A stretch of DNA of 37,164 nucleotides, taken from positions 1-37,164 of IMG/VR virus record IMGVR_UViG_3300050821_000418. One strand, 5' to 3'. Positions 9,945 through 34,495 of the stretch are shown here, in pieces. The notes under the pieces were generated by a model. That model worked only from the letters and a program-made list of their open reading frames with translations, was not told the origin of the DNA and ran no database searches. This stretch comes from a virus. The translations under genes and the position numbers were made by a program. Every line of letters starts with the position of its first letter. The first letter of the stretch is position 1.

Positions 9945-10178
9945 ATGAATAATATTTATTTGTGGTTAATTTGGTTTCCGTTAGTATTTGGATCATTTGC
10001 ATTATTCGAGGGATTTGCTTTAAAACATCCTGATAGGCAATGGACGTTATCTCGCTTAATGGCTTATGTAGGTGCAAAATTTCCTCTTAGCATTGCAATA
10101 TTATCTATGCTTTTTGGCGGTTTACTGGTACACTTCTATTGGCATTTTTGCCCTGATTTTGCGATACAAGGTGGATAA
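9945..10178 (+). CDS. Holin-like membrane protein, two TM segments
   Basis: The 77-aa product has two hydrophobic helices: residues about 4-24 (YLWLIWFPLVFGSFALFEGF) and about 50-68 (LSIAILSMLFGGLLVHFYW), linked by a basic, Trp-containing loop. Size, topology and position just after a GH25 endolysin suit a class II-type holin or pinholin that opens the inner membrane to the lysin. The next gene is also holin-like, so one may be an antiholin. No sequence family is recognised with certainty. Confidence 0.6.
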   Translation: MNNIYLWLIWFPLVFGSFALFEGFALKHPDRQWTLSRLMAYVGAKFPLSIAILSMLFGGLLVHFYWHFCPDFAIQGG

Positions 10179-10180
10179 TT

Positions 10181-10441
10181 ATGGACCAACAATTAATTAA
10201 ATCTCTATTAGCTTCTGCTGTTCGCCATGGATTGACAACACTAGCTGGTGTTTTAGCAACACACGGTTATTTATCTAGTAGTGCATCGGAACAATTTGTT
10301 TCGGCTGGTTTGCTATTTGCTGGCGTTGTTTGGTCATGGTGGCAGAAAGATGGACAAGCTAAAGTTTTAGCTGCACTAGCCAAACATCGCAATGTTACAC
10401 CTACTGTTGCAGCACAACAAGTTAAGGATGCTGCAAAGTGA
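10181..10441 (+). CDS. Probable holin, Pam3-type
   Basis: The 86-aa protein has a weakly hydrophobic N-terminal helix (LLASAVRHGLTTLAGVLATH), then GYLSSSASEQFVSAGLLFAG followed by VVWSWWQKDGQ and a soluble Lys/Ala-rich tail. The pattern RH.LT.LAG.L...GYL....E...GA...GVVWS.WQK is common to small phage holins found beside endolysins. Two base pairs separate it from the previous membrane protein. Confidence 0.65.
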   Translation: MDQQLIKSLLASAVRHGLTTLAGVLATHGYLSSSASEQFVSAGLLFAGVVWSWWQKDGQAKVLAALAKHRNVTPTVAAQQVKDAAK

Positions 10442-14917: not shown

Positions 14918-15025
14918 TAGCGAGAATGGGTAAAGCCCTACATCTGCCAGTTTGTTGCACCATGATGGGAAACCGGAAAAATCATCATGTTGACTATCCC
15001 CATTATGTCCGGTTGACACTCGCTA
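14918..15025 (-). promoter_or_regulatory. Predicted pseudoknotted leader RNA upstream of the clamp gene
   Basis: The 139-base gap between the MazG-like gene and the clamp gene contains four perfect complementary pairs in a nested plus pseudoknot order: TAGCGAG 14918-14924 with CTCGCTA 15019-15025; AATGGG 14925-14930 with CCCATT 14999-15004; CATGATG 14961-14967 with CATCATG 14983-14989; and AACCGGA in that hairpin's loop (14971-14977) with TCCGGTT in the linker (15008-15014). That is 27 base pairs in 108 bases. The operon is read leftward, so the minus-strand RNA is the likely form, ending about 28 bases before the clamp ATG. No known riboswitch class is recognised. Confidence 0.55.
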
Positions 15026-15029
15026 ATTG

Positions 15030-15586: not shown

Positions 15587-15777
15587 TGTTTCGCTATACA
15601 ATATTTACACGTTACTTTACAATCTTCTAAATTACATTCCAAATCATAACAGGCTCGTTGTAACTTTTTATCAAACGCCATAGATGTATTACTTCCAGGA
15701 TAGAAAGCTACAATTTTAAATCTATTACAAGCCGTTTTAGCTGATTTTGGTTTTATAATTAATTTGTGTATCATCAT
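15583..15777 (-). CDS. Small Cys-rich protein, 64 aa
   Basis: Basic N-terminal half (HKLIIKPKSAKTACNRFK), then a Cys-dense end with CYDLECNLEDCKVTCKYC, enough for one or two metal sites. The ATG overlaps the stop of the 37-aa ORF (ATGA), and the stop overlaps the next start in the same way. I do not recognise it. The dense translational coupling shows it is expressed with its neighbours. Confidence 0.65.
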   Translation of the reverse strand: MMIHKLIIKPKSAKTACNRFKIVAFYPGSNTSMAFDKKLQRACYDLECNLEDCKVTCKYCIAKQ

Positions 15778-15887
15778 TCCGCCCCTACAATCTTTGGAAA
15801 TTTTTCATTTTTAATTTTTATATATTCATTATATAATTCTCTCTTCGGATGGCCTTCCGGCCAAGTTAAGCCTATTCCGTAAATCAA
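15774..15887 (-). CDS. 37-aa ORF with a copy of the helicase C-terminal tail
   Basis: The ORF starts at a TTG overlapping the previous stop (TTGA), reads IYGIGLTWPEGHPKRELYNE and ends NEKFPKIVGAE. The last nine residues repeat the end of the helicase (KFPEIVGAEW), and 25 of 29 DNA bases are shared (15775-15803 against 15947-15975). Its stop overlaps the next ATG (ATGA). It may be the old helicase tail displaced by an insertion, a real small gene, or part of one gene joined to the 20-aa ORF by frameshifting. Confidence 0.45.
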   Translation of the reverse strand: MIYGIGLTWPEGHPKRELYNEYIKIKNEKFPKIVGAE

Positions 15888-15975
15888 GCTAATGGGTCCA
15901 ATTTGATTTGTTGTCGTATTATTTCTTTATCTTCTTCACTTATCACCATTCTGCCCCTACAATTTCCGGAAATTT
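15775..15975. repeat. Imperfect 29-bp direct repeat at the helicase 3' end
   Basis: CATTCnGCCCCTACAAT followed by GGAAATTT occurs at 15775-15803 and at 15947-15975, 25 of 29 bases equal, 172 bases apart. On the minus strand both copies encode KFP(E/K)IVGAE and a stop. This is the boundary duplication discussed in the findings. Confidence 0.75.
15884..15946 (-). CDS. 20-aa micro-ORF between helicase and 37-aa ORF
   Basis: It reads (GTG) ISEEDKEIIRQQIKLDPLA. The GTG overlaps the helicase TGA (GTGA), and its TGA overlaps the following TTG (TTGA). Size alone cannot prove expression, but both junctions are the coupled kind used throughout this operon. A frameshift at its end would join it to the 37-aa frame and give one 57-aa protein, which is the main alternative. 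Confidence 0.35.
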   Translation of the reverse strand: MISEEDKEIIRQQIKLDPLA

Positions 15976-17580
15976 ACCGTGACTTTTGTTAACCCAAACC
16001 CGTATTTTCTTAGGCACTCTCAATTCAGCCATATGCTGTAAAGCTTCTATTGTTGTTGCTGGTGGTTCTGATTTGTGCCGTTGTCTCCACCAGTTTCTAG
16101 CTTTAACACTTGGCAATCCTGGATGTTCAAGGTAAACCCATTCTTTGAAACTTTGCATTCCGCCGTTCGTAAAATACGTTACTTTCATACTTTGCGGCGA
16201 ACCTACTTTATTGTGGGGTGCATATATAACACGATATACATCAAAAGACTCCACAATAGGAAGGTCACTAGCAAGGATAGCATCAGTTCCGGCTTTTGCA
16301 ACAAGTTTAGTTTTGAAAGTAAATTCTTCACCGCAATTGCAACATACTCTTGCGCTCGCATGATTATATGCTCCACAAGCATCACAAAGCTTTACCGGAG
16401 GATCGCCAACTTTTTCACCTTTACGACGCGGGATAATTGGATCGTTAATTGGGCCAAGACGCGGAACATTTTTTCCAAAGTCTAATACTAAACAATTATC
16501 TGCCGAATTAGTTGGTCGTGTACCACGCCCTAATTTCTGCACATGCTTAGGAATACTCAATGTATGATTTAAGTCAACAATCATATCAATGTCGTTATGA
16601 TTAAAGCCTGTTGTGATCTTAGCAAAGCTGACAATCGATCTTAATTTGTTGGCTTTAAAAGCTTTGATAGCGGCGTCGTTATATTGTTCGTTTCTACCAT
16701 AGTGTTGTTGTTTTGAATGAACCGGAGCACAATCAACGCCAAAACTAGACAGCATTGAAGCTATGTGCTCACAATGTTCAATACCAGTTGCAAATATAAG
16801 CCATGATTGTCTATTATGTCCCGCTACAACAGCTTCTTTTAATGCAGCATAAGTTATTTCCTCTTTATCGACGGCGTGTTGCAATTGACTTGCTATAAAT
16901 TCATGACCTTGAATACCCACACTACTTATATCGATTTCCGTCTTAGTGCGTAACGGGATTAAAGGCTTCATATAGCCTTCAGCAATTAAACTATTGAAAT
17001 TTTCAATTCCAGTCAAGTCGTGAATAATATCGGTAAATATGTTTAGATTATTTCCGTTTTCGTCTACTTGAGCATCAGTTAGCAGGCCCTGACCCATTCT
17101 GAAAGGCGTAGCAGTTAGCCCAATTATTCGAATGTGAGGATTGATAGCTTTTAGTACGGCTAACACGCTAAGATATCTTGACGATGTATCCATACTAACT
17201 AAATGCGCTTCATCAATCCAAGCTATATCCCTGTGTCCGAATATAGTTGGATTTTTCGCGGCCGATTGTATATTGGCGTATACAATTGGAAAAGCAGATT
17301 GTTTTAATTTCAATCCTGCACTAAATATGCCTAAAGGTGCATTGGGCCATATCATTTGTAATACTTCAGCATTTTGCCGGATTAATTCGGATACATGAGA
17401 AAATAAAATAAAACGTTGTGTAGACCATGCTTTCATTATTCGATAAATGAAAAAGGCAGGTATTGAACTTTTGCCCGTACCAGTTGGATGAGCAATGAGC
17501 GGATTGCCTGTCGCACCGGAACTAAAATAATTCCAGATACTATTTAAAGCATCTTCTTGGTATGGGCGAGGGGAAATCAA
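15943..17580 (-). CDS. Superfamily 2 DEAH-box helicase with C-terminal zinc ribbon
   Basis: ATP-driven DNA helicase of the type found in phage replication operons. Motif I is HPTGTGKSS (31-39), motif II is DEAH (123-126), motif III is LTATPFR, and motif VI reads QKLGRGTRP before a CLVLDFGKN segment. A four-Cys zinc ribbon (LCDACG...VCCNCGEEF) follows the helicase core, and a C-terminal domain (KARNWWRQRH) ends with KFPEIVGAEW. The N-terminal start MISPRPYQEDAL is typical. It overlaps the upstream nuclease gene by four bases (ATGA), so helicase and nuclease may work together in recombination-linked replication. Confidence 0.9.
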   Translation of the reverse strand: MISPRPYQEDALNSIWNYFSSGATGNPLIAHPTGTGKSSIPAFFIYRIMKAWSTQRFILFSHVSELIRQNAEVLQMIWPNAPLGIFSAGLKLKQSAFPIVYANIQSAAKNPTIFGHRDIAWIDEAHLVSMDTSSRYLSVLAVLKAINPHIRIIGLTATPFRMGQGLLTDAQVDENGNNLNIFTDIIHDLTGIENFNSLIAEGYMKPLIPLRTKTEIDISSVGIQGHEFIASQLQHAVDKEEITYAALKEAVVAGHNRQSWLIFATGIEHCEHIASMLSSFGVDCAPVHSKQQHYGRNEQYNDAAIKAFKANKLRSIVSFAKITTGFNHNDIDMIVDLNHTLSIPKHVQKLGRGTRPTNSADNCLVLDFGKNVPRLGPINDPIIPRRKGEKVGDPPVKLCDACGAYNHASARVCCNCGEEFTFKTKLVAKAGTDAILASDLPIVESFDVYRVIYAPHNKVGSPQSMKVTYFTNGGMQSFKEWVYLEHPGLPSVKARNWWRQRHKSEPPATTIEALQHMAELRVPKKIRVWVNKSHGKFPEIVGAEW

Positions 17581-18428
17581 GTTTCACCATTTATAGATAT
17601 ATGTTGTGGACATCCGATCTTGATAAATTCTTTTGGTATTATCCCATACAAGTTGCATTTCCATTCTGCATTTTCAACCGCCGTTGCATTTCGACAACTG
17701 CGGCAATTGATTTCGACCTTAGCGCCATTATGACAGATATCAACAAAATCACAATACTTACATTCGAAATATGCGGGATTTTCAGCAATCTTAGCGGGCG
17801 GTATTTTAGCTGATATTATGTCTTGCGCTCGCTTTTCTAATTCTGTTCCAATATTCCAGTCTAACGGTACAATTTCGATTGTAATATCGCTGTCATTTTT
17901 GTTTTCGATGAGATATAGACCGTAGCGTATCCCGTAATGCTTACCGTATTGACACATTTGTTTAAAATGTTTTGGTTTTGTTTCGATAATTCCTTTAGCA
18001 GCAACTCCATTATATCCTGTCCCTGTTCCATTGGTTTTAAACTCTAAAAGATACTGCATTTGCTTATAATAACCAATACCATCAAGCGAACCACCATAAT
18101 GCCCGTTACATCCAGTTATACGATATTGTTTATCGTTATTATCTGTCAATACAACATTAAATCCAATTCCTCTTAAATATTCTGCAAATCGAGGTTCGGC
18201 ATTATGTCCAACTTGAAATAATCGTTGTATGCGTCCATCGTGAATTACTTTCTTAATCCAACGAAAACCATACCATAACTTACGATCGCAAATTTCGCCC
18301 ATTACCGAAGCGCCGAGATGTTCTCTGTGTCCCGTATTGTATTTATCCGAGCACCATTTATCTATATCCGATTTAATGGTTTCGGCTAGTTTCTTGCGAT
18401 CTTCTGGATTATTTAAATTGCAGGACAT
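17577..18428 (-). CDS. PD-(D/E)XK exonuclease, Cas4/RecB-like
   Basis: The protein has 283 aa. The nuclease core shows the helix SVMGEICDRKLWYGFRW (41-57), the acidic GGSLDG (D115) and the E-x-K of LLEFKTNG (E129, K131). The C-terminal part is Cys-rich (FECKYCDFVDICH, INCRSCRN and a later Cys), resembling the Fe-S cluster Cys of Cas4/AddB-type nucleases. Such enzymes resect DNA ends for recombination. It is directly upstream of, and coupled to, the helicase. A hairpin with T-tract lies just before its ribosome site (AGGA), so its expression may be lower than that of the SSB-like gene. Confidence 0.85.
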   Translation of the reverse strand: MSCNLNNPEDRKKLAETIKSDIDKWCSDKYNTGHREHLGASVMGEICDRKLWYGFRWIKKVIHDGRIQRLFQVGHNAEPRFAEYLRGIGFNVVLTDNNDKQYRITGCNGHYGGSLDGIGYYKQMQYLLEFKTNGTGTGYNGVAAKGIIETKPKHFKQMCQYGKHYGIRYGLYLIENKNDSDITIEIVPLDWNIGTELEKRAQDIISAKIPPAKIAENPAYFECKYCDFVDICHNGAKVEINCRSCRNATAVENAEWKCNLYGIIPKEFIKIGCPQHISINGET

Positions 18429-18438
18429 TAAATATTCC

Positions 18439-18467
18439 TAAAAATATGGGGCGGTTAAGCCCCATAT
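18439..18467 (-). terminator. Intrinsic terminator or attenuator between SSB and nuclease genes
   Basis: On the minus strand the stem ATATGGGGC pairs with GCCCCATAT around a six-base loop and is followed by TTTTT. It lies 10 bases before the nuclease start codon, with the AGGA ribosome site right after the T-run. Read-through would express the nuclease, helicase and polymerase genes; termination would favour the SSB-like protein. Confidence 0.7.
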
Positions 18468-18497
18468 AGTCAATGCGATCCTATGGCTTTTCTTATA

Positions 18498-19163
18498 TTA
18501 TCGATTGCCCCAAGGTGGCGCTTGTGATGGCGCAGCACCTTGCGACCAACCGCCACCAGTATTATTAGCCGGTGCGGGGTTTTGATTTGGTCCAGGTTGC
18601 CAGCCGCCTTGATTGCCGCTTTGAGCGGGTTGTGGATTGGTGTTTTGCTGCGGCTGGTTATTCCATCCACCATTCTGTTGAGGCTGCTGTTGAGGCTGTG
18701 GCGCGCTTTGTTGAGTTGGCGCTTTACCCGGTTCGTTACCTTGAATATCAAGTATCTTTTTCACTTCCACATAAGCGGTTGATTGCTTACTTTCACGATC
18801 AATTTGATACCCAATTTCCATCTTGCCGCGTCCACCACGCAATTCCTTACCGGCATTTTGCAAATCTGGCGAACCATCCGGCATATTCGGAAAGTTAATA
18901 CGGAAGATACCTACCGCATAACACAATGCCGAAAGCGCCTTCTGTGCAATCTCAACCGCTTGCGTAGAGCTATTCCAAAGATTATAGCGGTTTTCAATCT
19001 TGCCTGCTGGCGAAGTCAACTCGACAATAAACATTCCACCACTTTGATCCTTGGTGGATTTAGCATAGGTATTGGTGATTTGAAAATCAAAAATACCTAC
19101 AGGATGTCCTTGTCCGCCTTGTTGCGGCGTAAACTGTGTAGCGTCGAAAGTAGTGTTTTGCAT
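18498..19163 (-). CDS. ssDNA-binding-like protein with Q/N/P/G-rich tail
   Basis: The start MQNTTFDATQFTPQQ at 19163 has AAGGAA seven bases upstream and is better than the longer frame from 19205. Residues about 1-140 form a beta-rich OB-like domain (GIFDFQITNTYAKSTKDQSG, FIVELTSPAGKIENRYNLW, GKMEIGYQIDRESKQSTAYV). The C-terminal third is a long disordered tail rich in Gln, Asn, Pro, Gly and Trp ending in PPWGNR, like an SSB tail but without the acidic tip. It resembles DUF669-type phage proteins that accompany Sak4-like ATPases. Coating ssDNA during replication or recombination is the likely role. Confidence 0.7.
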   Translation of the reverse strand: MQNTTFDATQFTPQQGGQGHPVGIFDFQITNTYAKSTKDQSGGMFIVELTSPAGKIENRYNLWNSSTQAVEIAQKALSALCYAVGIFRINFPNMPDGSPDLQNAGKELRGGRGKMEIGYQIDRESKQSTAYVEVKKILDIQGNEPGKAPTQQSAPQPQQQPQQNGGWNNQPQQNTNPQPAQSGNQGGWQPGPNQNPAPANNTGGGWSQGAAPSQAPPWGNR

Positions 19164-19216
19164 TTTAGTTTCCTTAATTTTAGCAGTCTGGTGATTGAGG
19201 GCCAACTACAACCGTG

Positions 19217-19483
19217 TTAAAACGTTTCCGGTTTTGCGATTGATCGAACCATAGCCATGAAACCTTGTTGCAAGTTTGTACGAGCTATGGCAAGCCAACG
19301 TTTATCGATAGCAGGTATGTCCATTTCAAGAGCGTCGCAAGTTTTGCCAACTTCTGTTGCCAAATCTTTAATCGAGTTAAACGCCTTATCGTATCTTTGC
19401 TTAAAATCGTCAGTCTCCGTTAAGGCTTTCGGTAGCGGCATTCGTTCGGCTGCTATATCTGCCCCGCGCTCTTGTTCTGACAT
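19217..19483 (-). CDS. Acb2/Tad1 hairpin-domain-like protein (candidate anti-CBASS sponge)
   Basis: From the ATG at 19483 (GGAAAGGAAAG just upstream) the product starts MSEQERGADIAAERMPLPKA and ends RWLAIARTNLQQGFMAM, then VRSIAKPETF. The ending R-W-x-A-I-x-x-T-x-L-Q-x-G-x-M-A-x-x-R-x-[IV]-A-x-P matches my memory of Acb2/Tad1-type helical hairpin proteins, which bind cyclic nucleotides and block CBASS or Thoeris defence. The two-helix build (KQRYDKAFNSIKDLATEVG, then the RW helix) also fits. An upstream ATG at 19558 overlaps the previous stop and would add 25 residues. The function is inferred from pattern only. Confidence 0.55.
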   Translation of the reverse strand: MSEQERGADIAAERMPLPKALTETDDFKQRYDKAFNSIKDLATEVGKTCDALEMDIPAIDKRWLAIARTNLQQGFMAMVRSIAKPETF

Positions 19484-19554
19484 CGTTCTTTCCTTTCCTA
19501 CTTTTTCATATTCTATTTTTGATCCGCTTGAAGTGTGAATTAATTTATAATCAT

Positions 19555-20220
19555 TCATTGCATAGCCTTTATCACCAATTTTCCAAAATGCGGTTCCTCA
19601 TATTCAGCTAATGATCCGGTTCTATCTCTCGCCAGCACGTCTATGGTGCCTACACACTGAAAGCTTTTTAATTGCCCCATTCCAGGTATATTGTGAATAC
19701 CCAAATGCAAAATTTCATCGTATAAATATGGAATATCTGCATTAAGTTGTTGTCCGGGCCAATAAGGCTTTCTGAAACCATTTTCTTGTGTGACTTGTTT
19801 GGCGATAAGATATATATGCTTTTCGCGTGTATAATAAAGCGTTCTAAGATGCTTTATGGTTTCGGTTGCCATTTGTCCATAAGCCGCCAAACCGTGTTTA
19901 TTGGATTTAAGAGCACCTTGCAAATAGATATCTGCCATCTGACTTGTACTGTCAACAGCTAGAGTATCAAAATTTTTCGTTTCAGCCGAATTGAAAAACC
20001 ACGAAAAGAAATCCTCGATAGCTTTAATGTCAAAGCCTAACCATGTGGGCACATTTGAATTACGCATTGATAATAAGCCGGGTTCGCAAGCTAACATGAC
20101 GGGACGCGGACAAGTGTTGATTAATGGAGTTTTACCGCTACCAGCATCACCATAGATGATTGATTTTACACCGAACGTTTGTGCAAATTCTTTTGCCGGA
20201 CGAAGTGAACGAATATCCAT
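19555..20220 (-). CDS. Sak4-like ATPase (AAA_24/RecA-like), phage recombination
   Basis: The 221-aa protein has Walker A GDAGSGKT (24-31), a Walker B-like FDTLAVDSTSQM near 84-95, and the typical CEPGLLSM and YLIAKQ strands. Single-domain RecA-like proteins of this type (Sak4, AAA_24) promote single-strand annealing or strand exchange with an SSB partner in phages. Here the SSB-like protein is two genes downstream, and nuclease and helicase follow. It begins one base inside the previous stop and overlaps the next possible ATG by four bases. Confidence 0.85.
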   Translation of the reverse strand: MDIRSLRPAKEFAQTFGVKSIIYGDAGSGKTPLINTCPRPVMLACEPGLLSMRNSNVPTWLGFDIKAIEDFFSWFFNSAETKNFDTLAVDSTSQMADIYLQGALKSNKHGLAAYGQMATETIKHLRTLYYTREKHIYLIAKQVTQENGFRKPYWPGQQLNADIPYLYDEILHLGIHNIPGMGQLKSFQCVGTIDVLARDRTGSLAEYEEPHFGKLVIKAMQ

Positions 20221-22558: not shown

Positions 22559-25003
22559 ATGAATCAATTCAATAACATTCCGCTTGAACTGCGGTTATTG
22601 CCACAATGGATAGTATGGGATAAAGATAAAGTTCCCTGCAATCCATTTACTAAGCAACCGGCTAATGTAAATGATCCTGAAACTTGGACAACTTTTGAAA
22701 ATTGTTATATCAATATTGATAATTATAACGGTATTGGTTTCGTATTTACTGATAATGATCCTTATTTCGGTATTGATCTTGATGACACGCAAGGCGACCA
22801 AATAGCATTAGACCGACAAATTAAAATTTATCGCGAATTTGATAGCTATTCTGAGATTTCACCATCGGGTAAAGGACTGCATATAATTGGTAAAGGAACG
22901 GTTCCGCAAGGTCGTCGTCGTTCCCACATAGAGATATATTCCAGTCAACGCTATTTTACAATGACTGGAAATGTATATCCTTCCGGTCAGGCGAAGCCAA
23001 TTGCAGAACGTCAAAGCATGTTAATGCAATTGTGGAAACAAATGGGAGCGGGAGCGCCAGCTACTTATTTGTATAAAGGGGATGATAATGAACGATTTAC
23101 AGATAATGAAATTATTGAGCAAGGAAGAAAAGCAGTTAATGGAGATAAATTCGAAATATTGTTATCTGGAAAATGGCAGGATAATTATCCGTCTCAATCC
23201 GAAGCAGACTTTGCATTCATTGACATTATTGCTTTTTATACGCAAAATAGGAAACAGATTGAACGTATCTATCGAAATTCTAATCTCGGACAAACCGATA
23301 AAAAGCGACAAAGAAAAGACTATATTACATGGATGATTAACAAATCATTCGATAGAATGTTACCACCGCTTGACTTTGATGGATTTAAAATAGCGTTAGA
23401 AAGTAAGATAAATGAACAGCATAGAAATAATAATAATAGCAGTACCAGTAATAATAGTGCTTCTAATGTTTGCATTCAAATAGCCGATTTGTCATTGAAC
23501 CATATAGCCGGTTCGTCCAATGGTAAGACGGCGGATTTTGATTCCGCTAATAATGGTTCGAGTCCATTACCGGCTTCCACTAGCGTAGCTCAATTGGTAG
23601 AGCCCGTGGCTCATAACCGCTCAGATGCAAGTTCGAATCTTGCCGCTAGTACCATTATTTTGCCACCGGGACTTCTCGGAGAAATCGCCCAATTTATCTA
23701 TGCTGCCGCTCCGCGTCCTGTACCTGAAATCGCATTAGCTGCTGCCATAGGCTTAATGGCGGGTGTCACGGGACGTGCTTACAACATATCAGGCACGGGA
23801 CTTAATCAGTACGTGCTTTTATTAGCTGCCACGGGTTCGGGCAAGGAAGCAATGGCGCTCGGCATAGATCGCCTAATGAATACAATTCGGCTTCAAGTTC
23901 CAACATCAACACACTTTATTGGTCCTTCTGAAATTGCTTCTGGGCAAGCACTCATTAAACATCTTTCAAAAACTTCACAATGCTTTGTTAGTATTCTTGG
24001 TGAATTTGGATTGCGACTTGAAGCTATGTCAAGTCCTACTGCTAATTCAGCCGAAAAAGCTTTAAAGCGAATGCTACTTGATCTTTACAATAAATCCGGT
24101 CATGGACAAATGTTTCGACCGTCTATCTTTGCTGATAGTGATAAAAATATTGCAACAACCGAAAGTCCCGCTTTTTCTATTCTTGGTGAAAGCACACCGG
24201 AACGGTTTTATGGTGCCTTAAATGAAGATATGATTAGCGAAGGATTATTACCTCGCTTTATGTTAATTGAATACAATGGCCCTAGACCGCCATTATCAGA
24301 ATTTCATTTGCAAGCCAAACCTTCATTTGAATTAATAGAACGGTTTGCTTCGCTAGTTGCTTATTGCGAAAGCACAATGCATCAGAAGAAAATAATTAAT
24401 ATTAATTGTGACCAACGATCGGATGGAATGTTAAGGAAGTTTGATAAATTTTGTGATCAACAAATCAATGGAACAAATAAGGAAGTGCTTAGACAACTTT
24501 GGAACCGTGCCCACATTAAAGCTTTGAAGATATCCGGCTTAATGGCTGTTGGATGTAACATGCTTGCTCCGATTGTTATCCCACAATATGTTGATATTGC
24601 AATTAACATGGTGCAGTCGGATATTAGAGCTTTATCGGCTAAGTTTGAGGCCGGTGAAATTGGATTGTCAACTAATGAGTCCAAACAGCTTAAAGAATTA
24701 TTGCGTATAATTAGAGAATTTGTTGTTAAGGATTGGAGTGAAATATTAAAGTATTTTGATAATGAAAAATTACATAAGGAGAAGATAATTCCTTATGCAT
24801 ATTTAAGTCGTCGCTTGATTGCAACATCGGTTTTTCGTACTGATAAGGTTGGAGCTACAAACGCAATTAAAAGAACTATACAAATTATGATTGAAAGTGA
24901 TAAGATAAGAGAGATTGGTAAGCAAGAATTGGCGTCTAAGTTCGGTACAACTCAAAGATGTTTTATCGTGAGCAATCCAGCACAATTATTTGAAAAATTA
25001 TAA
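22559..25003 (+). CDS. PrimPol-like + DUF3987 ATPase replication protein with embedded tRNAs
   Basis: The N-terminal domain (about 1-270) is an archaeo-eukaryotic-type primase/polymerase fold: QWIVWDKDKVPCNPFTKQPA, the metal site GIDLDD (D73, D75), SPSGKGLHI (H108) and HIEIYSSQRYFTMTG, then a helix bundle (KRQRKDYITWMINKSF) as in NrS-1-like polymerases. An Asn/Ser-rich linker (285-370) follows. The C-terminal DUF3987 region has Walker A ATGSGKE (424-430) and a Walker B-like VSILGEFG (E481) and probably is the helicase-type ATPase. The protein likely primes and unwinds DNA. Two complete tRNA genes (23506-23654) form residues 316-366 of the linker without breaking the frame. It ends six bases inside the opposing endonuclease VII gene. 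Confidence 0.85.
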   Translation: MNQFNNIPLELRLLPQWIVWDKDKVPCNPFTKQPANVNDPETWTTFENCYINIDNYNGIGFVFTDNDPYFGIDLDDTQGDQIALDRQIKIYREFDSYSEISPSGKGLHIIGKGTVPQGRRRSHIEIYSSQRYFTMTGNVYPSGQAKPIAERQSMLMQLWKQMGAGAPATYLYKGDDNERFTDNEIIEQGRKAVNGDKFEILLSGKWQDNYPSQSEADFAFIDIIAFYTQNRKQIERIYRNSNLGQTDKKRQRKDYITWMINKSFDRMLPPLDFDGFKIALESKINEQHRNNNNSSTSNNSASNVCIQIADLSLNHIAGSSNGKTADFDSANNGSSPLPASTSVAQLVEPVAHNRSDASSNLAASTIILPPGLLGEIAQFIYAAAPRPVPEIALAAAIGLMAGVTGRAYNISGTGLNQYVLLLAATGSGKEAMALGIDRLMNTIRLQVPTSTHFIGPSEIASGQALIKHLSKTSQCFVSILGEFGLRLEAMSSPTANSAEKALKRMLLDLYNKSGHGQMFRPSIFADSDKNIATTESPAFSILGESTPERFYGALNEDMISEGLLPRFMLIEYNGPRPPLSEFHLQAKPSFELIERFASLVAYCESTMHQKKIININCDQRSDGMLRKFDKFCDQQINGTNKEVLRQLWNRAHIKALKISGLMAVGCNMLAPIVIPQYVDIAINMVQSDIRALSAKFEAGEIGLSTNESKQLKELLRIIREFVVKDWSEILKYFDNEKLHKEKIIPYAYLSRRLIATSVFRTDKVGATNAIKRTIQIMIESDKIREIGKQELASKFGTTQRCFIVSNPAQLFEKL
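23506..23579 (+). tRNA. tRNA-Gln (UUG), inside the PrimPol-DUF3987 ORF
   Basis: All parts are present: acceptor AGCCGGT/ACCGGCT (7 perfect pairs), D arm GTC/GAC with a GG loop, anticodon stem GCGGA/TCCGC with loop TTTTGAT (anticodon TTG at 23538-23540), T arm AATGG-TTCGAGT-CCATT, discriminator T and an encoded CCA. It lies in sense orientation in the linker region of a long ORF. It would read CAA, the main Gln codon in these genes. The final A is shared with the next tRNA. Confidence 0.92.
23579..23654 (+). tRNA. tRNA-Met (CAU) (or tRNA-Ile2), inside the same ORF
   Basis: Acceptor ACTAGCG/CGCTAGT (7 perfect pairs), D arm GCTC/GAGC with AATTGGTA loop, anticodon loop CTCATAA (CAT at 23612-23614), T arm GCAAG-TTCGAAT-CTTGC, discriminator A and encoded CCA. 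The anticodon stem has four pairs plus a C-T mismatch at its base. Overall it looks like elongator tRNA-Met; with lysidine at position 34 it would read AUA as Ile. Its first base is the last A of the tRNA-Gln CCA, so the pair is fused with no spacer. Confidence 0.9.
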
Positions 25004-25285
25004 ATGTTCTTTTAAATAATCGATAGCTTGTTCTAAATAATCAATTCTGTCTTTAAAAAATCCTAAACCGAGATTACAATGATGACATAATAATTTTCTT
25101 ATTTTACCAGTTTTGTGACAATGATCTATTCGAGGTTTTACTTCTCTACTGAAAGGTGTTCTACATATTGCACACATATTGTCGTTCAATAAAAGTTTTG
25201 ATAATGATACTTTTGATTTTGTTTTATAAGAATCTGATGATATTTTAGATTTGAGAGTTGTTAATCGCTTATCAATGGTGTTCAC
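24998..25285 (-). CDS. Recombination endonuclease VII (HNH, treble-clef zinc)
   Basis: The core MCAICRTPFSREVKPRIDHC followed by HKTGKIRKLLCHHCNLGLGF and FKD....L..AI.YL is the endonuclease VII signature: two C-x-x-C zinc pairs and the D-H-C-H active-site segment. Such enzymes resolve Holliday junctions and branches before packaging; small free-standing copies can also behave as homing endonucleases. I choose the GTG at 25285 (N-terminus NTIDKRL), with AGGAGA seven bases upstream; a longer ATG frame from 25348 lacks a good site. It is the only minus-strand gene in the right half, sitting tail to tail with the PrimPol gene, as expected for an inserted gene. Confidence 0.85.
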   Translation of the reverse strand: MNTIDKRLTTLKSKISSDSYKTKSKVSLSKLLLNDNMCAICRTPFSREVKPRIDHCHKTGKIRKLLCHHCNLGLGFFKDRIDYLEQAIDYLKEHL

Positions 25286-25580
25286 GGTACGTTCTCCTTT
25301 ATAGGAAATATGATACCCTTTTATATGGAAAAAGTTGATAAGAGTCAAGAGGTTATGATGGATATTGCGTCGTATAATTATAACGCCTGTATATATCTCT
25401 AACTTACAATGTTAAATTACAGTCCTACGATAATTGATCCTACGTTAATTACTATCTATTTCTACTATATTATATATATTATATTTTATTATAAATAGAG
25501 AGAAAACAAGGACTTAGCTATCTATAAAAACGTCAAAGATCGCTATAAGCCTAACGACTGTTAAAAGTAGGAGGTTAAAA
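25286..25580. other. AT-rich intergenic stretch with promoter-like sequence
   Basis: No ORF is supported here. A very AT-rich run at about 25440-25500 contains several TATAAT-like hexamers (such as TATTATATATATTATA) but no clear TTGACA at the right spacing. TCCTACG occurs twice, 15 bases apart, near 25420-25440. The region separates the leftward endonuclease VII gene from the rightward accessory genes, so divergent promoters are expected. The next gene has GGAGG before its ATG. Confidence 0.4.
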
Positions 25581-27424: not shown

Positions 27425-27679
27425 ATGGATGATTTTATTAAAACTATCATACCAAGGTCTAATGTAAAAGTTGATATGCCTGATGGAGCGGGATTACCAA
27501 GAGATTATTTACCTAAATTTAATTTAAAAGATAAAGTTCATATTGACAATGATGATTCGATTGTTGGAATTATTACAGCAATTCAATGGCGAATAGAAAG
27601 CAACTGTTCTTATGAGGTATCGTGGTTTTCAAATGGTAAAGCAGAATCATCTTTTATTGAAGAATGGCGGTTATCATGA
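27425..27679 (+). CDS. Conserved small phage protein, SH3-like, 84 aa
   Basis: The middle and end (FNLKDKVHIDNDDSIVGIIT, EVSWFSNGKAESSFIEEWRL) match a recurrent small phage family with a KV.I....S..G.VT......Y.V.W..NG......F.EWRL pattern, probably a Tudor/SH3-like barrel. The role is not known. Its stop overlaps the following ATG (ATGA). Confidence 0.65.
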   Translation: MDDFIKTIIPRSNVKVDMPDGAGLPRDYLPKFNLKDKVHIDNDDSIVGIITAIQWRIESNCSYEVSWFSNGKAESSFIEEWRLS

Positions 27680-27912
27680 CACCCGAAGGCCTCGTTAAAA
27701 GCGGTCGAAAGGTTAGTTCAATGATGATAGATGATTTAGAAGAAATTAATTTAAGAACAGATAAGGTTGTTGATAAACAAAACAAAATTAAAGCTGGAAC
27801 AAAGCGAATGATGAAAACTATAAATAAAATTAATAGTCAATCTAGATGGATGAAAGAATTAAGAGGTAAAAAAGGCGCTAAAGCTTGTCATTTAAAAAGA
27901 TATGGAAAATAA
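27676..27912 (+). CDS. Hypothetical protein sharing its first codons with the VRR-NUC gene
   Basis: It begins MTPEGLVKSGRKVSSMMIDD, and the first ten codons repeat those of the next gene (MTPESLAKSG). At DNA level 27 of 31 bases from two bases before the ATG are equal. The rest is a basic helical protein (DKQNKIKAGTKRMMKTINK, ending GAKACHLKRYGK). This looks like a gene inserted at, or fused to, a duplicated start of the nuclease gene. Function unknown; nucleic-acid binding is possible from its charge. Confidence 0.6.
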   Translation: MTPEGLVKSGRKVSSMMIDDLEEINLRTDKVVDKQNKIKAGTKRMMKTINKINSQSRWMKELRGKKGAKACHLKRYGK

Positions 27913-27915
27913 ATC

Positions 27916-28314
27916 ATGACTCCCGAAAGCCTTGCTAAAAGCGGCAGCGAAGATGCAATGCAAATGGCGCTCTTTTGTTGGGCACAACAAAATCAAGATA
28001 AATATCCCGAATTAAAGTATTTATTTCACATTCCTAATGGTGGATTTAGGGATATCCGAACGGCTGGCAAGTTAAGAGCCACCGGAGTTAAAAAAGGTGT
28101 GCCTGATATTTGTTTGCCAGTTAAGCGAGGATTGTTTAGCGGATTGTGGATTGAATTGAAGAAAGACTATAAGGCACCTATTTCAAAAGAACAAGAAGAA
28201 TGGCTTGACTTTTTACGAACACAAGGGTTTGCTGCGCTTGTATGTGTTGGTTGGACTGACGCCAAGGAAGTGATCGAATGTTATTTGAATGACATACGAA
28301 GCGGAGACTTTTAA
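27916..28314 (+). CDS. VRR-NUC family nuclease
   Basis: The 132-aa protein has the compact PD-(D/E)XK fold of VRR-NUC enzymes: E-x-x-x-Q-x-x-L (EDAMQMALFCWAQQN), FHIPNGGFRD, the TG.KKGVPDICLPV segment with the catalytic D, and LWIELKK (E-x-K). It then continues KAPISKEQEEWLDFLRTQG, with VCVGWTDA at the end. Phage VRR-NUC proteins act on DNA junctions or flaps. Its start region is duplicated 240 bases upstream. Confidence 0.9.
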   Translation: MTPESLAKSGSEDAMQMALFCWAQQNQDKYPELKYLFHIPNGGFRDIRTAGKLRATGVKKGVPDICLPVKRGLFSGLWIELKKDYKAPISKEQEEWLDFLRTQGFAALVCVGWTDAKEVIECYLNDIRSGDF

Positions 28315-29103: not shown

Positions 29104-29295
29104 ATGTGTTGATTTATCGTAGTGAATTTTCTAATGTTGATTATCGAATGCAGCGCAAGAGTTCCTAAAAGAGGGCCGTGAAAGCGAATAGGGCGAACAA
29201 GCAGTAGCTCCGGCGGGAATAATAGGAAGCGTAGTTTGGCAGGTTACAGTTAGCAGTCTAACGACCAATGTTGTGCATTCGAGCTAACGAAGTTA
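29104..29295. other. Gene-free stretch before the first tRNA-like element
   Basis: No ORF of useful length with a ribosome site is seen. The sequence is richer in G and purines than the surroundings (for instance GAGGGCCGTGAAAGCG). A short hairpin GTTAG-CAGT-CTAAC lies near 29248. CTAACGA recurs three times. It may be 5' sequence of a non-coding transcript that includes the tRNA-like element. Confidence 0.3.
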
Positions 29296-29402
29296 TGGGG
29301 CGCTTGGTAGGTGTATCGGTTCAGTGCCGAGTTTTCTATCACTGAGATAGAAAATAACGTTAGGTTCAATTCCTAACCGCTCCACTTTAATTCGAGCTAA
29401 CG
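29277..29402. repeat. 13-bp direct repeats flanking the first tRNA-like element
   Basis: ATTCGAGCTAACG occurs at 29277-29289 and again at 29390-29402, one copy on each side of the element at 29296-29384. The copies are exact and 113 bases apart, as from a target-site duplication or recombination between short repeats. Confidence 0.65.
29296..29384 (+). ncRNA. tRNA-like RNA with long variable-type hairpin (copy 1)
   Basis: Ends pair as TGGGGCG/CGCTCCA. The T arm is canonical (TTAGG-TTCAATT-CCTAA). An anticodon-like arm TCGG-TTCAGTG-CCGA has only four pairs; its loop would give CAG. A 9-bp hairpin TTTTCTATC-ACTGA-GATAGAAAA lies where a class II variable arm belongs. The D region is short and cannot form a normal arm, and no CCA follows. 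The element shares ends and T arm with 30231-30324. It may be a decayed tRNA-Leu/Ser or a tRNA mimic. Confidence 0.5.
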
Positions 29403-29423: not shown

Positions 29424-29591
29424 ATGGAACGATTTACGCAAGCAAATACCGTCGGCTATACTGATGAAGAACTGGTGAAGCTTAATCATCTTTTTAATGA
29501 TCGTGTAAAGCGATATTCTCAAGATGATAAGAGTTTTCACGACTATGTTGCCGAACGAGTTCTTGCTGAATTTGACGGTGGATTGCTATGA
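29424..29591 (+). CDS. Small hypothetical protein, 55 aa
   Basis: GGAG nine bases upstream and an ATGA overlap with the next gene support this ORF. The product starts MERFTQANTVGYTDEELVKL and ends VAERVLAEFDGGLL. It is acidic and helical. Codons here are richer in G and C than in the structural genes. No family recognised. Confidence 0.65.
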   Translation: MERFTQANTVGYTDEELVKLNHLFNDRVKRYSQDDKSFHDYVAERVLAEFDGGLL

Positions 29592-29986
29592 ACATTATCA
29601 CCTATCATTCAAGCAACGCCAAGCCTCACGAGGCTTGGCTAGCTTATGTTGAGCTAGCTAATGGCGAGCAATGGCTTGTGCGATGTACGGGCCATAGCGA
29701 GCTAGAGGCTAAGACGAAAGCACAAGTGTTGTGGGATAGGGAGCGAGCAAAGTATAAAGTTCACAACGAATTGGTTGATAACGCCGTAGCCGAAATGAAG
29801 AAGGTTGATTGTCAAGGCGAGCAACCTAAGAGGATCGACGGTCGTGGCGCTCATGCCAGTGCAATGTTTGCTGGCAAGATGTGGATGATCAATCGAGCTA
29901 CGCACCATCTTTGTCGAATTGATCCGAGCGAGTTGACAGTGTATGAGGCTAAGGGATATGTAAGGGGTGGACCTAGGAGTAAATGA
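29588..29986 (+). CDS. Hypothetical protein, 132 aa
   Basis: The N-terminal half (HEAWLAYVELANGEQWLVRC) is beta-rich, then helix (LEAKTKAQVLWDRERAKYKV), then a basic Ala/Gly part (KRIDGRGAHASAMFAGKMWM). I do not recognise a family. Codon use is more GC-rich than in the lysis and structural genes, like the ParB-like gene downstream. It is coupled to both neighbours by ATGA overlaps. Confidence 0.65.
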   Translation: MNIITYHSSNAKPHEAWLAYVELANGEQWLVRCTGHSELEAKTKAQVLWDRERAKYKVHNELVDNAVAEMKKVDCQGEQPKRIDGRGAHASAMFAGKMWMINRATHHLCRIDPSELTVYEAKGYVRGGPRSK

Positions 29987-30126
29987 AAATGACAAATCGA
30001 ATGTTACCTGTAATTCAATTAACTGTTGTAATTGCGCCTAAAGGTGTTGGAATATTTGATTTGAGATTTTGGCAATCGTGGAAAAGAATGGTGTGGCATT
30101 CTAGCTGGGGACCACGAAGCAAGTAA
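29983..30126 (+). CDS. Small Trp-rich protein, 47 aa
   Basis: The ORF MKMTNRMLPVIQLTVVIAPK... continues with FDLRFWQSWKRMVWHSSWGP. Its ATG overlaps the previous stop (ATGA) and AGGAG lies just upstream. The Trp/Arg-rich amphipathic end could bind membrane or nucleic acid. Function unknown. Confidence 0.55.
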   Translation: MKMTNRMLPVIQLTVVIAPKGVGIFDLRFWQSWKRMVWHSSWGPRSK

Positions 30127-30230: not shown

Positions 30231-30324
30231 TGGGGTTCCTGGTTGGGTTTGGCGGATAGTGACCGCACGTTGATAGTTAAACTGACTATTAATGGAACGC
30301 TAGGTTCAATTCCTAGTAACTCCA
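30231..30324 (+). ncRNA. tRNA-like RNA with long variable-type hairpin (copy 2)
   Basis: Ends pair as TGGGGTT/AACTCCA. The T arm CTAGG-TTCAATT-CCTAG is nearly the same as in copy 1. A four-pair arm GCGG-ATAGTGA-CCGC sits in the anticodon place, and an 8-pair hairpin TTGATAGT-TAAACTG-ACTATTAA is the long arm. The D region again cannot form a standard arm and no CCA is encoded. Copies share the 5' TGGGG and 3' CTCCACT. It lies between the promoter above and the ParB-like gene, so it could also act in that gene's leader. Confidence 0.5.
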
Positions 30325-30381
30325 CTAACGAAACGCAGTCAAATGATAGGCAAATTCAAATTGAGCGCGAGGGAAACAGTC

Positions 30382-31918: not shown

Positions 31919-32053
31919 ATGACATATCTCATTATTGTCGAGTGGTTCTTAATCTTTAACGGTGTTATATTTCTTTGGCTAACAAGGAAACATAGACATG
32001 AATTGGCCAGTAAAACAAATAACGTTAGAGCAAGCGCGAAAAGCATATCCTGA
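31919..32053 (+). CDS. Small single-TM protein, 44 aa (possible)
   Basis: The ORF MTYLIIVEWFLIFNGVIFLW continues LTRKHRHELASK. It has one clear membrane helix followed by a basic cytoplasmic-type tail. It begins one base after the previous stop and overlaps the next gene by 56 bases. The ribosome site is moderate. Confidence 0.45.
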   Translation: MTYLIIVEWFLIFNGVIFLWLTRKHRHELASKTNNVRASAKSIS

Positions 32054-32375
32054 TAACATTCAAGGTCCGTTATGTCCCGCTTGCGGCGATAAATTAGGTC
32101 ACGATGGACCTTGTGTATCAGCGGCGATGTATGGGGTTAAAGGTCAAGCTAGCTATCCGCCGTTCTATGATTTAGAAGATCGTAAGCAACACGAACGTCG
32201 CAGATTACCAGAACGCAAGCCACTACAAATTAAAGTCCTGGTATATAATGCCGCCGATGAATTGATCCGGGATCATACGAAGGATTTCAAGAAAGAGACA
32301 ACTCGCAAATGGCTTAATAACTGTTTATTGTGGGCAGTTAAGAATGGTTATTCGGTGGAAATTAGTAATGGTTGA
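31998..32375 (+). CDS. Hypothetical protein, 125 aa, paralogue of the 34274 gene product
   Basis: AAGGA lies upstream of the ATG. The N-terminal part has a C-x-x-C-G knuckle (PLCPACGDKLGHDGPC), probably zinc-binding. The C-terminal part (QIKVLVYNAADELIRDHTKD, then TRKWLNNCLLWAVKNGYSVE) is the same domain as the 73-aa protein at 34274-34495, so the fold is duplicated in this region. Function unknown. Confidence 0.65.
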   Translation: MNWPVKQITLEQARKAYPDNIQGPLCPACGDKLGHDGPCVSAAMYGVKGQASYPPFYDLEDRKQHERRRLPERKPLQIKVLVYNAADELIRDHTKDFKKETTRKWLNNCLLWAVKNGYSVEISNG

Positions 32376-34273: not shown

Positions 34274-34495
34274 ATGATAAATGATGATAAGAGATTACAC
34301 GGTCCTGAGTCTGCACCTTTATTAAATCCAGTTGAAAGCTTGCCTGTTAGAGTTACAGTATATGATAAAAATGATCATATAATTAGACAAGAGACGGTTG
34401 ACTTTTCTAATCGTCGGCATAGAGTATGGATAGGGCAAATTACCGCATGGGCAATACAGCAAGATTTTGTTGTTGAGACAAGTAAAGGGAAATGA
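34274..34495 (+). CDS. Hypothetical protein, 73 aa, paralogue of the 31998 gene product
   Basis: SLPVRVTVYDKNDHIIRQET then RRHRVWIGQITAWAIQQDFV corresponds position by position to the C-terminal part of the 125-aa protein (QIKVLVYNAADELIRDHTKD). It lacks that protein's zinc knuckle. Function unknown. Confidence 0.6.
   Translation: MINDDKRLHGPESAPLLNPVESLPVRVTVYDKNDHIIRQETVDFSNRRHRVWIGQITAWAIQQDFVVETSKGK

Follow-up and report, generated by a model that had tools for sequence, protein, structure and literature searches.

In mycobacteriophage Island3, gene 68 encodes 85 aa and has no homologues; its 18 C-terminal residues (60 bp) match the upstream gene, and phage Brujita has a single copy at this position and no insert (PMC3029335). 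Genes 43-46 of LRRHood form a 1.35-kb insert of four genes flanked by 29-bp direct repeats (PMC3029335). The mobile-ORF hybrids of fungal mitochondria (atp6 of Allomyces; Glomus) involve inserts that code for homing endonucleases and operate at the 3' ends of genes (PMC3630166). The Start Associated Sequences of Cluster K mycobacteriophages are 13-bp motifs, present in many copies and thought to act in translation initiation (PMC3203893).

The locus analyzed here lies in a 37,164-bp virus record of IMG/VR (39% GC), referred to in full as the window, in which the start of a predicted VRR-NUC nuclease gene (V) is duplicated in front of a small inserted ORF (X; Table 1). By comparison, Island3/Brujita is the closest published case: both combine a small ORFan insert carrying a neighbor's terminal coding sequence (a shared stretch of 28/32 bp here) with an insert-free, single-copy relative (PMC3029335). 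Unlike in Island3, the shared stretch is the 5' rather than the 3' end of the neighbor; the window also contains two gene-end cases, and the available relative is much more distant. As in LRRHood, added genes lie between direct repeats of about 30 bp whose sequence is single-copy in relatives, but the LRRHood insert is much larger and its repeats are not described as captured gene starts (PMC3029335). The fungal mobile ORFs likewise show an inserted ORF together with a second, diverged copy of the neighboring gene's terminus, whereas X resembles no nuclease. Start Associated Sequences are also located at gene starts, whereas the repeat of the window has only two copies, both inside coding sequence.

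Table 1. Coordinates of the duplicated nuclease start, the two gene-end scars and the recombination genes in the window
Feature	Position	Strand	Description
Gene U	27425..27679	+	84 aa; AT-rich, 31% GC; stop overlaps copy-1 ATG (ATGA)
Copy 1, probable leftover VRR-NUC start	27673..27704	+	MTPEGLVKSG; 53% GC; coupled to gene U; in-frame fusion to ORF X
ORF X body	27705..27912	+	68 further codons (78 aa with captured start; pI 10.3); coding, AT-rich
GAAAGG, possible ribosome-binding site	27707..27712	+	8 nt before ATG 27721; a reading of the sequence
Copy 2, native VRR-NUC start	27913..27944	+	MTPESLAKSG; 50% GC
V, VRR-NUC nuclease (predicted)	27916..28314	+	132 aa, intact; PF08774 E 2e-08; phrog_824 E 4.5e-46
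Scar 1 (helicase end)	15775..15975	-	insert between helicase and following genes; last insert ORF ends KFPKIVGAE
Scar 2	29971..30126	+	gene 29588-29986 ends GGPRSK; inserted 47-aa ORF 29983-30126 ends WGPRSK
Recombination module	17577..20220	-	Cas4-domain exonuclease 17577-18428; SSB 18498-19205; Sak4-like annealing protein 19555-20220

The preliminary description had reported a 31-base repeat (TCATGACnCCCGAAnGCCT...TAAAAGCGG; 27674-27704 and 27914-27944, 27/31 bases the same) encoding MTPEGLVKSG and MTPESLAKSG. The repeat is present in this form and gains one upstream base (27673/27913), which brings it to 32 bp with 28/32 identical; the two copies are spaced 240 bp apart, and their peptides share 8/10 residues (7/9 after the Met). 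The start duplication is confirmed as real and is not expected by chance: a scan of the window allowing up to 3 mismatches found no third copy, 100 dinucleotide shuffles of the window gave a mean of 0 matches to the repeat, and in a start-anchored comparison of neighboring ORFs over 908 kb (the window and related phages) the expectation for a 20/24 match was 0, the 20/24 start match of the window exceeding all null-set values.

V scores 34.7 bits against PF08774, above the curated cut-off of 23.8; its nuclease activity is predicted, and its GC content is 40%. Residues 1 to 10 were turned into a degenerate DNA pattern, with Ala or Val allowed at position 7; in 2.9 million viral contigs of IMG/VR this pattern gave 25 exact matches, 23 of them VRR-NUC genes and the other two a single 24-codon ORF. 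Proteins of this VRR-NUC subfamily natively begin MTP(E/D)xLAKSG(S/T)E. Among named phages (Xanthomonas phages Pfeifenkraut and Langgrundblatt1, Pseudomonas phage LPPA15 and Sulfitobacter phage M39) the starts read MTP(E/D/A)xLAK(S/N)GTE, and the XAJ2 VRR-NUC protein has the same type of start with two extra residues. Across eight aligned members, columns M1, T2, P3, L6, A7, K8 and G10 are invariant, and copy 1 breaks A7, with Val in place of the Ala of its aligned relatives. Because the motif is the native start of the nuclease subfamily, copy 2, which is fused to the nuclease, is the original and authentic gene start.

The ORF behind copy 1 had been characterized as an unrelated basic protein fused to the nuclease start. 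The basic and unrelated character holds: X shows no similarity to V past the shared start, and its candidacy as a relative of V was therefore rejected. The fusion requires refinement, since X probably begins inside the frame, at the ATG at 27721 (codon 16), giving a protein of 63 aa; with such an internal start, the borrowed nuclease start may be a passenger rather than a working N-terminus. The X body is compositionally foreign, with a GC content of about 26-27%, compared with 39% in the window as a whole and 40% in V. It shows codon-position periodicity, and the chance of 68 open codons is 0.0005. No homologues of X were found in IMG/VR, the named-phage collection or 41 related records, nor did it give a significant Pfam or PHROG match. 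Structure prediction from the single sequence yields one long helix (mean pLDDT 88.5, pTM 0.47), which says nothing on function. No inverted repeats were found at the insert ends, as would mark a transposon or small phage mobile element, and Pfam/PHROG matching of the insert detected no transposase or endonuclease of the kind carried by homing-endonuclease mobile ORFs.

The ATGA link to the upstream gene, which the preliminary description assigned to copy 1, is indeed held by this copy. U has one detectable IMG/VR relative (L056; 47% over residues 30-84), which also ends by an ATGA overlap, but a different gene comes next. When VRR-NUC phages without the 78-aa gene were compared, as had been proposed, 14 of 22 distinct relatives showed a copy-1-like junction, with V starting in an ATGA shared with the stop of an open frame upstream; these upstream frames are open frames of at least 32 codons, not all of them annotated genes, and differ widely among the relatives having the overlap. 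Since this junction is common among relatives lacking X, and copy 1 holds the link to U, the pre-insertion state was most likely U-ATGA-V.

The closest of these relatives is IMGVR_UViG_3300015171_000008 (hereafter G024), a contig that runs collinear to the window along almost its entire length and has one of these ATGA junctions. Its V (57-62% identity) directly follows an ATGA-coupled mini-ORF, without U and without X. G024 and 21 further V relatives carry a single copy and no insert at the junction, which supports the proposal that the start was duplicated in front of an inserted gene.

Both gene-end duplications mentioned in the preliminary description exist, one at the helicase end and one at the end of gene 29588-29986. 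At the helicase end, the copies occupy 15775-15803 and 15947-15975 (KFPKIVGAE/KFPEIVGAEW), the helicase itself ending KFPEIVGAEW at 15943, and an AGGGG ribosome-binding-like stretch precedes an ATG in both; in G024, the helicase stop directly overlaps the next gene, with no insert. At the second gene-end locus, G024 has one copy and nothing of the 47-aa ORF. Each of the three duplicated termini in the window thus goes together with an inserted ORF that is absent from G024. The differences between copies are biased toward synonymous changes: the V-start and helicase-end pairs together show 3 amino-acid changes against 6.0 expected (P=0.018), and inclusion of the third pair gives 3 against 9.1 (P=0.0001), a value to be read with the qualification that this pair (GGPRSK/WGPRSK) was found partly through protein similarity. 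For the V-start pair alone the bias is not significant (P=0.19). The combined pattern fits copies that both evolved inside working genes, in different phages, before they were joined.

The ORF inserted after the helicase (15775-15942, minus strand) has the reading MVISEEDKEIIRQQIKLDPLA*, beyond which a different frame carries on to ...KNEKFPKIVGAE; it is a frameshifted or degenerate gene. Between two phage genes, positions 14919-15028 (minus strand) give a full-length match to Rfam RF02496 (Rhizobiales sRNA Atu_At1; 87.3 bits, gathering score 60), for which no counterpart was found in the fetched G024 sequence.

Other features of the window were recorded alongside. A tRNA-Gln(ttg) and a tRNA-Met(cat) lie back to back at 23506-23654 (plus strand), in frame inside an 814-aa primase/helicase ORF (22559-25003); the G024 primase (58% identity) has a short linker in their place. 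Right behind the primase, on the strand opposite to its neighbors, is an Endonuclease VII-like gene (24998-25348, minus strand; PF02945 E 1.8e-18) with no matched counterpart in G024. Two segments at 29294-29386 and 30231-30326 (plus strand) have tRNA-like acceptor stems and a common tRNA-like 3' end (repeat D14) and are not recognized by ARAGORN or Rfam. Genes 31998-32375 and 34274-34495 (plus strand) have a homologous C-terminal part in common, and both paralogues are found in G024 too.

Start repeats of this kind were sought in other relatives. Among 80 V loci fetched by profile, none had a start repeat above background (about 22/28), and a primase-based search of viral contigs found no closer relatives. 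With low-complexity sequence excluded, gene-terminus repeats at this level in the 908 kb numbered two in the window and one in another related record (L087). The concentration in the window genome (binomial P 0.005, post hoc and based on very few cases) is suggestive of scar enrichment. The L087 repeat (10211/10340, DAMYCGF) was rejected as a scar of the same kind: its adjacent 42-aa ORFs (10085-10342) have this C-terminus and little else in common and are probably diverged tandem paralogues. Also set aside were the other 24/28 repeats in relatives, mostly low-complexity coding repeats, and, in L117, an out-of-frame 21/28 match close to V that does not rise above background. In L031, a V start stub of about 26 codons (2593-2760) is present, and the rest of the 69.8-kb contig contains no VRR-NUC body, which shows that V start stubs also form independently. 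The stub is cut by a 90-bp repeat, whose second copy lies 662 bp upstream.

The nuclease-start locus is best, and in our view probably, explained by an unequal recombination event at a gene boundary, in which copy 1 would be a leftover V start joined to an arriving gene, with an intact V behind it. In the ancestor, U would have been joined to V by ATGA. Recombination would then have linked codons 1 to 10 of one V to DNA carrying the AT-rich X and then a complete V, so that one unequal joint between a U-V phage and an X-V phage would give U, V start, X and whole V in this order, the two copies being contributed by two parent phages. A parent phage carrying X immediately ahead of V did not turn up, and the two-parent step is hypothetical. 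X would most likely be translated from its own start, or else by coupling from copy 1. Such unequal joints would be kept only where the neighboring gene stays whole, and the surviving scar would therefore be a duplicated gene terminus; the two gene-end duplications would represent the same type of joint in mirror image. The Sak4-like, SSB and Cas4-type genes suit short-homology exchange, and we infer that this module, or else illegitimate joining, may have carried out the enzymatic step. In phage HK620, Sak4 acts as a single-strand annealing protein and is stimulated by its SSB (PMC5928155), and one report describes phage annealing proteins as promoting recombination between diverged DNA (PMC5499656).

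A less likely origin is intramolecular: within one genome, replication slippage, or staggered-break repair capturing X, would have copied a stretch of about 32 bp at the U/V junction, after which the copies drifted. A single insertion with target duplication yields the same layout, in the clean 240-bp register observed, and the ATC that precedes the ATG in both copies, absent at the V of G024, slightly favors local duplication. Against this, the changes between copies are mostly synonymous, which is unexpected in a free copy (a weak argument for the V pair alone), and the insert lacks both terminal inverted repeats and a transposase or endonuclease gene.

It is somewhat more doubtful that copy 1 is no passive scar and has been kept by selection, supplying X with a translation-initiation region coupled to U. 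The preserved ATGA coupling, the agreement of the residues after the Met and the AGGGG stretch at both helicase-end copies speak for such a role; the plausible start of X itself, with GAAAGG upstream, and the change of an otherwise invariant Ala speak against it. Very improbable is descent of X from V as a decayed tandem paralogue: the two start alike and gave one weak collinear DNA alignment, but their bodies show no excess similarity over dinucleotide shuffles under eight scoring settings (P 0.07-0.96), or at the protein level (P 0.56). Least credible of all is that MTPExLxKSG is a functional N-terminal tag common to unrelated phage proteins, the finding named beforehand as decisive against a duplicated start, for which no supporting evidence emerged and which the 23/25 VRR-NUC matches, with one 24-codon ORF behind the other two, exclude at the sensitivity of the pattern scan.

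Beyond this single locus, a recurrent process in this phage might put small AT-rich genes in at gene junctions, with about 15-35 bp of the neighbor's start or end left on the inserted ORF, and the neighbors and their overlap coupling left intact; this generalization is put forward only tentatively and is itself unlikely. This type of recombination scar is already known at gene ends in other phages, and a gene-start example is added here. With three scarred junctions (two ends and one start) and a collinear relative in the empty state, a single genome shows how small genes enter densely packed phage operons and leave these unbroken. The combination of a duplicated terminus and a change in composition provides a signature that can be searched for across phages, and it carries a warning for annotation: where the N-terminus of a small ORF looks conserved, it may have been borrowed.
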